From: Armatimonadota bacterium
GTDB lineage: Bacteria > Armatimonadota > Fimbriimonadia > Fimbriimonadales > Fimbriimonadaceae
Length of the DNA stretch: 64,000 bases
Direction: 5' to 3'
Assembly: GCA_025360125.1 (NCBI GenBank)
Contig: JANYCU010000033.1
Location: forward strand, 1 to 64,000
A program made the translations under genes and the position numbers. The notes beneath the pieces were generated by a model that was not told the DNA's origin, searched no databases, and saw nothing but the letters and a program-made list of their open reading frames with translations. Positions 13,215-16,804 of the stretch are shown here, piece after piece. The stretch's first letter is position 1. Every line of letters begins with the position of its first letter.

Positions 13215-13984
13215 AACTGGTCGGTCATAAAAAACTGAGGGATGCCGGGGAAGTTGTGTCCCATTAAGTACATCGGAACGGAGATAGTTCCAAGCGGGAT
13301 TTCTAAAAGGTCAGTCATCGACGACAGGCCAAACCACTCGGTCCCCGCCGGAACGGGTAGCTTCTTTTCCGACGGATCAACTAATATCTCCCTCATCTGG
13401 CCGTTTTCTAAGCAAAGGTATCCAGATTTATAGGCAAAGGACTCTCGGAATTGCCACTTCCAATACGACCATCGTTGTTTATTCCGACGAATTCTGTCCT
13501 GATGGCCAGCCGACCATTCCTCATACTTCGCTTCTACCTGCGGAAGGGATATCGGATCGAGATCAATTTCGAGGGGGAGCGAAACGATTGGACCACGAAC
13601 CACACGATCAATTCCCTCGAACCCGATGGAATCGTATACACGGGTATCGGCGGCAAACAGGAGAGCGGCTCCTTCTCCCCTCTTCTCGGATTCAATGAGC
13701 ACTTGCCGGATTAGCTTGCTCGCAAGCCCCTCGCGCTGTCGCGAAGGTTTAGTGGCGACACCCGCAATGCCGACCGCATTCCCCCAACCGAAAATAAGGG
13801 GAGTGGTGGTCAAGATACTGATCATCTCGCCGCCTTCGTAAAGGGCCCATTTTCGGTTGATGTCAAAAAATGGTTCTTCTCGAAAGAGGCTTTGAGCCCG
13901 AAAGAAATCTAGCTCGAAAACGTCACAAAGGATCCGCAAGAAAGTGTCGGTTTCTTCAAGCCGGATAGTTCGAATTTCGGTCAT
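13211..13984 (-). CDS. GNAT family N-acetyltransferase (two-domain, Eis-like)
   Basis: The 257-residue protein has a GNAT core with V-G-I-A-G-V-A-T-K-P-S-R-Q-R-E-G-L-A as motif A (acetyl-CoA loop around residues 78-86) and Y-D-S-I-G-F as motif B. The C-terminal half extends beyond a minimal GNAT domain. Its start overlaps the stop of cdaR by four bases, so it is the third gene of the cdaA-cdaR unit. A link to c-di-AMP signalling is possible through that position only; the acceptor is unknown. Confidence 0.8.
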   Translation of the reverse strand: MTEIRTIRLEETDTFLRILCDVFELDFFRAQSLFREEPFFDINRKWALYEGGEMISILTTTPLIFGWGNAVGIAGVATKPSRQREGLASKLIRQVLIESEKRGEGAALLFAADTRVYDSIGFEGIDRVVRGPIVSLPLEIDLDPISLPQVEAKYEEWSAGHQDRIRRNKQRWSYWKWQFRESFAYKSGYLCLENGQMREILVDPSEKKLPVPAGTEWFGLSSMTDLLEIPLGTISVPMYLMGHNFPGIPQFFMTDQF

Positions 13985-14706
13985 TTCTTGGGTGGCGGAA
14001 CCGCCGAAGGCGGCATGTCTTTTGCAAATCGAACCGATACATGAATCTTGAGCGGCTCGTTGATTTGCTCTTCTTTGTACTCAGGGTGGTCATCAATGCT
14101 GTGCAGAATTACCCTCGAAATGGTGCTGCCATTGGCATCGACGGCTTTGGATTCCACGTCGTCGTCGTGGGGAGTTTGGGTGATCGAAGTCAGATTGATC
14201 GCGACCTGAACTTTGGATACTTTTTGAATCGTTTCTGATGGACCAGTTACATAGACAAATCGAAGTGATGGCTCAATCGCGTCCTCATGAAATCCAGCCG
14301 GAAGGCTTCCAGTTCTGGCAACCGTAACTTCGACGCGCTTGGTGACCAAGGCTTCGATCTTGATGGCTACGGGAGGAGTGTTACCAATCAATTCGCGGGA
14401 GGTGGCGGGGAAAACAATGATAGGATAGCTTTTTGTTCCTGGATTGGCATTGCTTAGATCAACGAGGGCAGTCGTTGTTTGTCGCATCGCCCGTCGTAAC
14501 TGGTCACGGTAACCAACGAGCGGTAAGGAAACACTGGGCGGAATCTCGGTGATGACATACTTGGATGCGTCCAAGTTTTGGGTCGTCAACGAAGCCATGA
14601 CTTTTTCATTTTCCGGCTCTTTTTTACTATCGTTATAAACACTGGCCCACAGCAAAATTGATGTTGCAAGTGAGAGGATTGCGAAAGGAATGTTGACTTT
14701 GCTCAC
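13981..14706 (-). CDS. cdaR: YbbR-domain regulator CdaR
   Basis: An N-terminal membrane anchor (about 7-24) is followed by extracytoplasmic beta-rich YbbR-like repeats and a proline-rich tail. In Firmicutes CdaR binds and tunes the diadenylate cyclase CdaA. The gene order cdaA-cdaR with a 4-base overlap (14703-14706) is the conserved arrangement, and it is the main reason for the name. The protein at 241 residues is shorter than many CdaR and seems to have fewer YbbR repeats. Confidence 0.8.
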   Translation of the reverse strand: MSKVNIPFAILSLATSILLWASVYNDSKKEPENEKVMASLTTQNLDASKYVITEIPPSVSLPLVGYRDQLRRAMRQTTTALVDLSNANPGTKSYPIIVFPATSRELIGNTPPVAIKIEALVTKRVEVTVARTGSLPAGFHEDAIEPSLRFVYVTGPSETIQKVSKVQVAINLTSITQTPHDDDVESKAVDANGSTISRVILHSIDDHPEYKEEQINEPLKIHVSVRFAKDMPPSAVPPPKK

Positions 14707-15455
14707 TTTGTCACCGCCTCCTTTCGATCTTTCTTGCGGGTTCGACGAGGCGTTGGTTCGCTCTGTTCATTTTGTGTTGTGTTGGCGATGAGGAATTCTC
14801 GAAGCTCCGTGCTACTCGAAATAACGATCAACTTTCCTTCGGCCGAAACGCGAATACTGCCTTTTTCTTCGCTGACCACGATCGCAATAACGTCATTTTG
14901 CTCGGTTACACCGAGAGCGGCTCGGTGGCGCATGTGCAGGTTGCGCTCGAGTTTGGATTCGCTCAGAGGAAGCCGGCAGGCGGCGGCGAGGATATTATTT
15001 CCTCGTATTAACACGGCTCCGTCGTGGAGCGGATTTTGACCAAAAAAGATCGAGCCAAGCAGAGAAGTAGTGATCTTCGCGTTGAGCATCACTCCGTTTG
15101 AAGCAATTTCATCAAGGTGGCCACCTGTTTCGATGACGATGATGGCACCAATTCGATCTCTCGCCATTTCGGCGACCGCACCGACAATTTCTTCGACCGA
15201 TCCTCGATCCAGGTTTTTCTCGTGACCAACTTCAGTGACGCTGTCCGGAAACCAACTCACTTTGGTCAGTCCTTCGATGGCTTGGCGAAGCTCAGGTAGG
15301 AAGAGAATAGCGAGGGCAACTGGCCCCAGAAGGCTGGCTTGACTCAATATCCAGTTGACGGTCGTGAGGTGAAGGGCACCGCTGATGAACAGAAGGGCGC
15401 CAAAAACGAGCAGGCCGAGAAGTATTCGCCATCCTCGAGTACCGCGAACCAACAT
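14703..15455 (-). CDS. cdaA: Diadenylate cyclase CdaA (true start probably upstream, near 15632)
   Basis: The membrane enzyme makes cyclic di-AMP from two ATP. Catalytic motifs D-G-A (145-147) and R-H-R-A-A (176-180) are intact, numbered from the first ATG at 15455. That ATG lies inside the protein: upstream in frame the sequence continues with a perfect first membrane helix (15515-15456, D-L-A-V-A-A-L-D-V-L-I-V-A-F) leading into R-L-L-M-L-V-R-G-T-R-G as in known CdaA. The open frame reaches back to a TAG at 15642-15644 without any ATG, GTG or TTG. ATT at 15632, seven bases after a TAGAAT box, is the best candidate and would give 309 residues. Confidence 0.9.
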   Translation of the reverse strand: MLVRGTRGWRILLGLLVFGALLFISGALHLTTVNWILSQASLLGPVALAILFLPELRQAIEGLTKVSWFPDSVTEVGHEKNLDRGSVEEIVGAVAEMARDRIGAIIVIETGGHLDEIASNGVMLNAKITTSLLGSIFFGQNPLHDGAVLIRGNNILAAACRLPLSESKLERNLHMRHRAALGVTEQNDVIAIVVSEEKGSIRVSAEGKLIVISSSTELREFLIANTTQNEQSEPTPRRTRKKDRKEAVTK

Positions 15456-15638
15456 CAGCAGGCGGTAAATAATGAACGCGACAATCAGGACATCTAGAGC
15501 TGCTACCGCGAGGTCAGTTGGGCCAAGGTCTTTAAATACATGAAAAACGGGTGATTCAATCGCCGAGAACCCAAGTCCTTGACGACCAAGGGGTTGAAAA
15601 ACATAGAAAACAGGCGAATCTATAAAAGGAATATTACG

Positions 15639-15644
15639 ATTCTA
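15639..15644 (-). promoter_or_regulatory. Candidate -10 box of cdaA
   Basis: On the minus strand TAGAAT is followed after six bases by ATT, in frame with cdaA. The same -10 to start spacing occurs at many other genes in this window. It is divergent from the pheA promoter 35 bases away. Confidence 0.5.
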
Positions 15645-15678
15645 TCTGTATTTGAATCCAAAAGGCACCAGACATTTC

Positions 15679-15684
15679 TATAAT
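15679..15684 (+). promoter_or_regulatory. -10 box of pheA
   Basis: A perfect TATAAT ends eleven bases before the ATG at 15695. A GTG at 15689 would be too close to be inside the transcript, so this box helps choose the ATG start. Confidence 0.65.
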
Positions 15685-15694
15685 CTAGGTGTCC

Positions 15695-16804
15695 ATGTTA
15701 CGCGGCGACCACTCCGACTCCGAAAATTTGCGTCCTTTGGACGAAATTCGAAAAGATATTGACCTCATTGACCAAGAGTTAGTGACCCTACTCTCACGTC
15801 GAACTGACCTCGCAATTGAAGTTGGCAAGATCAAAGGAAGAGACGGAAAACCATTTTTTACGCCTGAGCGCGAGCGAGCCATTTATGAGCGGTTGTCAGC
15901 CATCAATCCTGGCCCACTCCTGCCAAAACAACTGAAATCTATTTACCGCGAAATCATTTCTGCCGCAATTGCCGCCGAAAAGCCATTGACGGTCGCCTAC
16001 TGGGGGCCACCCGGAACCTTTACCAACATGGCGGCCCTCCAGACATTTGGCGGAAGTACTAATTTGGCGGCAGAAGACTCCATTTCGGATGTCTTCAAAG
16101 CGGTCGAAAACAACAAAGCCGACTATGGCGTCGTCCCGGTCGAGAATTCGGTCGCTGGTGTCGTTCCCGAGACTCTGGACATGTTTCCGCAGACCAACGT
16201 TAAGATTTGCGCGGAGACGTACGTAGCGATCGATCACCATTTGGTGAGCACGCTTACGGACATGAATCAGATCAAAACTGTTTACGCGGGTCCTCAACCT
16301 AGCGCTCAATGTAAGCGTTGGCTGAAGATGAATATTCCAGCGGCAGAAATCGTCGAAGTGGTCCCCACCGCAAAGGCTGCTCAAGCTGCGCTCGACGATC
16401 CAACTGGGGCCGCCATTGCCAATGTGCTGGGAGCCGAAATGGTGGGAATTCCAATTCTTCAGGAACACATCGCGGATAATCCTCAAAATCGAACCCGTTT
16501 CTTGGTGATCGGCTACAACGAGCCAGTAAAGACCGGGCGCGATAAGACGAGCATCATGTTTAACCTTCGAAATCGACCGGGCGAACTGTACCGAGCTCTC
16601 GAAGCATTATATGAACACGGGGTCAACCTGATGATGATTGAAAGCCGACCCGCACCTCGGGCATCATTTGAATACATTTTTTACACCGACTGTGCCGGGC
16701 ACAGAACAGACGACAACCTTGTGGCTGCGATTAATCGGCTGAAAGGGCAAGCACTCGAAACAACGGTGCTCGGCAGCTATCCAATGGCCGAATCCAACGG
16801 TTGA
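15695..16804 (+). CDS. pheA: Bifunctional chorismate mutase / prephenate dehydratase
   Basis: Converts chorismate to prephenate and then phenylpyruvate in phenylalanine synthesis. An AroQ-type chorismate mutase occupies about 13-95. The prephenate dehydratase domain starts at V-A-Y-W-G-P-P-G-T-F (about 105), and a C-terminal ACT domain starts near 285, with the phenylalanine-binding E-S-R-P signature. The length of 369 is normal. Feedback inhibition by phenylalanine is expected from the ACT domain. The stop overlaps the TTG start of the next gene in TTGA. Confidence 0.93.
   Translation: MLRGDHSDSENLRPLDEIRKDIDLIDQELVTLLSRRTDLAIEVGKIKGRDGKPFFTPERERAIYERLSAINPGPLLPKQLKSIYREIISAAIAAEKPLTVAYWGPPGTFTNMAALQTFGGSTNLAAEDSISDVFKAVENNKADYGVVPVENSVAGVVPETLDMFPQTNVKICAETYVAIDHHLVSTLTDMNQIKTVYAGPQPSAQCKRWLKMNIPAAEIVEVVPTAKAAQAALDDPTGAAIANVLGAEMVGIPILQEHIADNPQNRTRFLVIGYNEPVKTGRDKTSIMFNLRNRPGELYRALEALYEHGVNLMMIESRPAPRASFEYIFYTDCAGHRTDDNLVAAINRLKGQALETTVLGSYPMAESNG

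Follow-up and report, generated by a model that had tools for sequence, protein, structure and literature searches.

Few genes have been proven to start outside ATG, GTG or TTG, and these are often regulatory. A near-cognate start is the known arrangement of infC, the gene for IF3, which begins at AUU, AUA or AUC. In Streptomyces, the GTC start of sigR has been proven, and the gene is repressed by IF3 (PMC5472188). Here, we analyzed a window of 64,000 nt, the whole stretch of DNA under study, from the 4.13 Mb draft genome of a Fimbriimonadaceae bacterium (phylum Armatimonadota). Its cdaA gene resembles the CdaA/DacA diadenylate cyclases (TIGR00159) in encoding an N-terminal membrane domain and a DAC domain and in being followed by a YbbR-domain gene, but differs from them in having no canonical start codon and in carrying a 21-residue duplication ahead of the first transmembrane helix (TM1).

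The cdaA locus and its missing start codon

The cdaA frame is bounded by an upstream TAG (15644-15642) and a TGA stop (14705-14703) on the minus strand (Table 1). Its product scored 212.2 bits against the CdaA equivalog TIGR00159 (curated cut-off 188.8), and the best solved-structure match was 9g69 chain C. Judged by such matches, the product is a CdaA diadenylate cyclase and a predicted c-di-AMP synthase. cdaA was the only DAC gene in each of 20 genomes of the genus, which makes its loss unlikely, and no second diadenylate cyclase replacing it was found in the source genome or in these 20. On the divergent side (15679-15697, plus strand), ATG 15695 of the chorismate mutase gene is preceded by a TATAAT at a distance of 10 nt, and this ATG, not GTG 15689, is probably the true start of that gene.

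Table 1 Features of the cdaA locus, in coordinates of the window.
Feature	Position	Strand	Remarks
YbbR-domain protein gene (CdaR-like)	13981..14706	minus	start overlaps cdaA stop, 4 nt
cdaA open frame, stop to stop	14703..15641	minus	diadenylate cyclase; sole DAC-domain gene in genome
DAC catalytic domain PF02457	14832..15179	minus	127.8 bits, above cut-off
CdaA_N transmembrane domain PF19293	15294..15500	minus	26.9 bits, cut-off 23.8
ATG, first canonical codon	15453..15455	minus	inside TM1; not the start
TM1 Asp	15491-15489	minus	within CdaA_N
Duplication copy 2, 21 codons, IESPVFHVFKDLGPTDLAVAA	15498..15560	minus	14/21 match to single copy of L002; begins at second ATT (15560)
Duplication copy 1, 21 codons, IDSPVFYVFQPLGRQGLGFSA	15561..15623	minus
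ATA, near-cognate, directly after lost TTG	15621..15623	minus	15 nt past box; candidate start
TTT at place of conserved TTG start	15624..15626	minus	12 nt past box; 23 codons before TM1 Asp, duplication discounted
ATT put forward earlier as start	15630..15632	minus	6 nt past box; AAT in both closest relatives
TAGAAT, -10-like box	15639..15644	minus	first 3 bases are the in-frame upstream stop; kept in L002-L007 and many family members
Divergent chorismate mutase/prephenate dehydratase gene	15689..16804	plus	shares intergenic region with cdaA

A sequence-only reading of the window had held that the frame contains no ATG, GTG or TTG between the upstream TAG and ATG 15455, and that the conserved first membrane helix lies upstream of that ATG. 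Reading of the frame confirmed the former, and the latter was borne out by PF19293, which begins ~15 codons ahead of ATG 15455; a conserved coding N-terminus was found upstream of any in-frame ATG, GTG or TTG. Initiation far upstream of ATG 15455, as had also been proposed, is supported, since TM1, which is kept in relatives, would otherwise be deleted. Standard annotation would truncate CdaA within this helix.

A frameshift or an upstream start in another frame was considered and rejected, as the short ORF in that region (15675-15634) stops before the start site and lies mostly upstream of the box. This intergenic ORF (MSGAFWIQIQIES, 15634-15675, minus strand) is found in the same frame, with a length within ~1 codon, at L002 and L003, the cdaA loci of the two closest relatives, and its DNA is strongly conserved, perhaps owing to the overlap of two divergent promoters. 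A scan for sigma-70 -35/-10 promoters gave no site, and no Shine-Dalgarno (SD) sequence supporting ATA 15623 or ATT 15632 was found.

The start site in close relatives

The nearest genomes are G002 (79% identity) and G009 (76%), and their cdaA loci, L002 and L003, aligned with the window without gaps over the box and the start site. The region reads TAGAAT CCT ACT AAT CCC TTG in L002, TAGAAT CCT AGT AAT CCT TTG in L003 and TAGAAT CGT AAT ATT CCT TTT in the window. Hence, the TTG start of both relatives corresponds to the TTT of the window. By this alignment, the ancestral cdaA start is at 15626-15624, where the assembly has no canonical codon and the conserved TTG reads TTT.

The sequence-only reading had taken ATT 15632 for the start and had suggested that its conservation be checked in close relatives. 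The codon is AAT in L002 and L003, with TTG two codons downstream, so that the noncanonical codon is not kept in the closest relatives; the AAT-to-ATT change, two codons from the lost TTG, is private to the window genome among the three aligned. A search of genome contigs found no second genome of the species, and viral contigs gave nothing; the TTG-to-TTT change is known from one draft genome. In genome G001 (locus L005), two in-frame TAG codons stand just upstream of the cdaA GTG start, which indicates that nothing upstream of this GTG is coding there.

cdaA starts across the family and order

We read the 5′ regions of cdaA across the family and in part of the order, and tabulated 82 family genes. 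A canonical start was present in 79 of them (56 TTG, 21 GTG and 2 ATG). The canonical codon lies 20-26 residues before the TM1 Asp in 76 of the 82 (mode 23), and three further genes have a TTG 17-18 residues before it. Of these 76 genes, 69 carry a TAnAmT box, mostly 9-24 nt upstream of the start, most commonly at 11-15 and never at 6. Both positional measures, taken at the lost codon of the window, thus agree with the alignment. An SD-like match, even of four bases, preceded about a quarter of the family starts (20/79).

The family genes (77 non-ATG vs 2 ATG) also differ from G000/G002 orthologue pairs that share a start codon, among which ATG predominates (59 vs 9 non-ATG; Fisher p ~1e-28, with shared ancestry ignored). 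Among Armatimonadota outside the order, ATG stands near the corresponding place of cdaA (~9 readable genes, judged by eye). A literature search found no published report of a TTG-started cdaA.

Besides the window, only genus g9 (G027, G099 and G100) lacked a canonical cdaA start at the conserved place. Its three genomes (loci L020, L038 and L123) all read GTC GAG [CT]TC CT[CG] AAC CTG CCC, and the candidate starts are GTC or CTG, under a conserved GGGGGTAAAAC. Genus g9 thus shows that the absence of ATG, GTG and TTG from the conserved start site of cdaA need not reflect an error.

A sequencing error that removed an ATG had been named as the main alternative to a noncanonical start; it remains so in a sharper form, the lost codon being TTG and not ATG. 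A one-base consensus error, or a rare strain variant, would mean that the true codon at 15626-15624 is TTG and that cdaA starts as in its relatives, leaving the duplication as the only oddity. This explanation, to which we give somewhat less than an even chance, draws on the canonical start at the same place in 79 of the 82 family genes, on the TTG of both nearest species, on the draft state of the genome (58 contigs) and on the fact that a single G-to-T change suffices for the anomaly, while the real loss in genus g9 and the general rarity of consensus substitution errors in assembled contigs speak for a true change. Heavy assembly error was rejected, as ~81 genes compared showed no clear frameshift or internal stop, the apparent cases resembling shadow frames or gene ends, a comparison that barely bounds substitution errors. 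Set against a real change, a consensus error is nearly as likely.

Leaderless genes and the proposed leaderless start of cdaA

Leaderless genes exist in this genome and are common for ATG and GTG. Over 651 kb with 474 ORFs, 32 ATG (3.1 expected) and 12 GTG codons (1.6 expected) had a TAnAmT box 6-7 nt ahead of them, with no enrichment for TTG (2 vs 3.0 expected) or ATT (2 vs 4.4 expected). Within the window, TANAMT-N6-RTG occurred nine times (3.4 expected), a count reached by 0 of 100 shuffles, and TANAMT-N6-ATT once (2.2 in shuffles). Hence, when the sequence-only reading placed ATT 15632 six bases past TAGAAT, in the geometry of other gene heads, it was right about the spacing, and the geometry is real for ATG and GTG, but the match to ATT is not above chance. 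No published report of leaderless genes in Fimbriimonas was found in a literature search.

Strictly leaderless initiation, in which the mRNA begins exactly at ATT 15632 as the initiator, is a sub-case of the explanation that we prefer below, and we consider it unlikely. Although the spacing of six is the modal leaderless one for ATG and GTG in the genome, and the private change that created the ATT lies close to the lost TTG, ATT falls short of expectation at box + 6-7, family cdaA starts never lie at box + 6, and even GUG, UUG and CUG serve poorly as leaderless starts in E. coli (PMC9031893). Neither conservation of ATT 15632 nor its standing as a typical leaderless start is supported. In leaderless mRNAs, ATG or GTG follows a TAnnnT box after 6-7 nt; family cdaA, in contrast, has its TTG or GTG start mostly farther from the box and looks like a short-leader rather than a leaderless gene.

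The N-terminal tandem duplication

The tandem duplication of the window is absent from L002 and L003. Its two copies are identical at 11 of 21 residues and keep the reading frame, and their 25 nucleotide differences are distributed 6/5/14 over the codon positions (one-sided p = 0.016 for third-position bias). Copy 1 is probably translated, to judge from this bias, which is modest over 21 codons, and the start would then lie upstream of copy 1. A start inside the old frame, either at the second ATT (15560), which is present as earlier noted and would yield a product of near-ancestral length from copy 2 (MESPVFHVFKDL..., near MQDSPVFHVFKDL... of L002), or at ATG 15455, which would yield a truncated product without the TM1 that relatives keep, is improbable, given the apparent translation of copy 1, the lack of a box in reach and the lack of a suitably spaced SD (AAGGA is 15 nt off). 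Taken together, starts other than the near-cognate ATA or ATT or a restored TTG are very unlikely.

Proposed near-cognate initiation and comparison with known systems

The explanation that we prefer, with about an even chance of being right, is that the base change is real and that initiation of cdaA uses ATA 15623 or ATT 15632, both of them near-cognate codons. In the order, cdaA would be read from a short-leader mRNA beginning just below the TAnnnT box and translated from a weak, conserved start codon (TTG or GTG). In this species, whose N-terminus carries the 21-codon duplication, TTG would have become TTT (15624), while translation would still begin at the site, at one of the isoleucine codons alongside. 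The product would be a CdaA with ~20-24 extra N-terminal residues compared with its relatives, and its initiation would be weak and, we infer, probably sensitive to IF3.

Near-cognate initiation of cdaA is supported by the gap-free alignment, the modal spacings, the preserved frame of copy 1, the status of cdaA as the sole DAC gene, infC, genus g9 and the proven GTC start of Streptomyces sigR; it is weakened by the single draft genome, the lack of an SD for ATA or ATT, the absence of enrichment of near-cognate leaderless starts and the modest third-position bias. As for infC, all 20 genus genomes start this gene at ATA (most, including G000), ATT or ATC, and none at ATG, GTG or TTG, which indicates that this organism does initiate translation at isoleucine codons. 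An SD-like sequence stands ahead of several of these infC loci (L214, at G000:C22, ~70811-71005, and L195-L213).

A wider hypothesis, which we hold to be rather doubtful, is that throughout the Fimbriimonadales a weak TTG or GTG start, mostly without SD and behind a very short leader, holds down the sole c-di-AMP synthase, and that at least two lineages (the window species with ATA or ATT, and g9 with GTC or CTG) moved to a near-cognate codon, linking the output of c-di-AMP to the level of IF3. If true, a second-messenger synthase with a weak start over a whole order and a canonical codon lost in two lineages would be an example in which control of dose at the initiation step can be tested.

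Among the known systems, infC resembles cdaA of the window in that a near-cognate isoleucine codon replaces the canonical start. However, the infC start is kept as near-cognate across the genus, with an SD-like sequence in several genomes, whereas cdaA has TTG in the closest relatives and no SD. Streptomyces sigR has a strong ribosome-binding site and a start that is conserved and experimentally proven, neither of which holds for cdaA here; the likeness is that of a regulatory gene held low by a noncanonical start, and GTC is also the codon found at a candidate cdaA start of genus g9.
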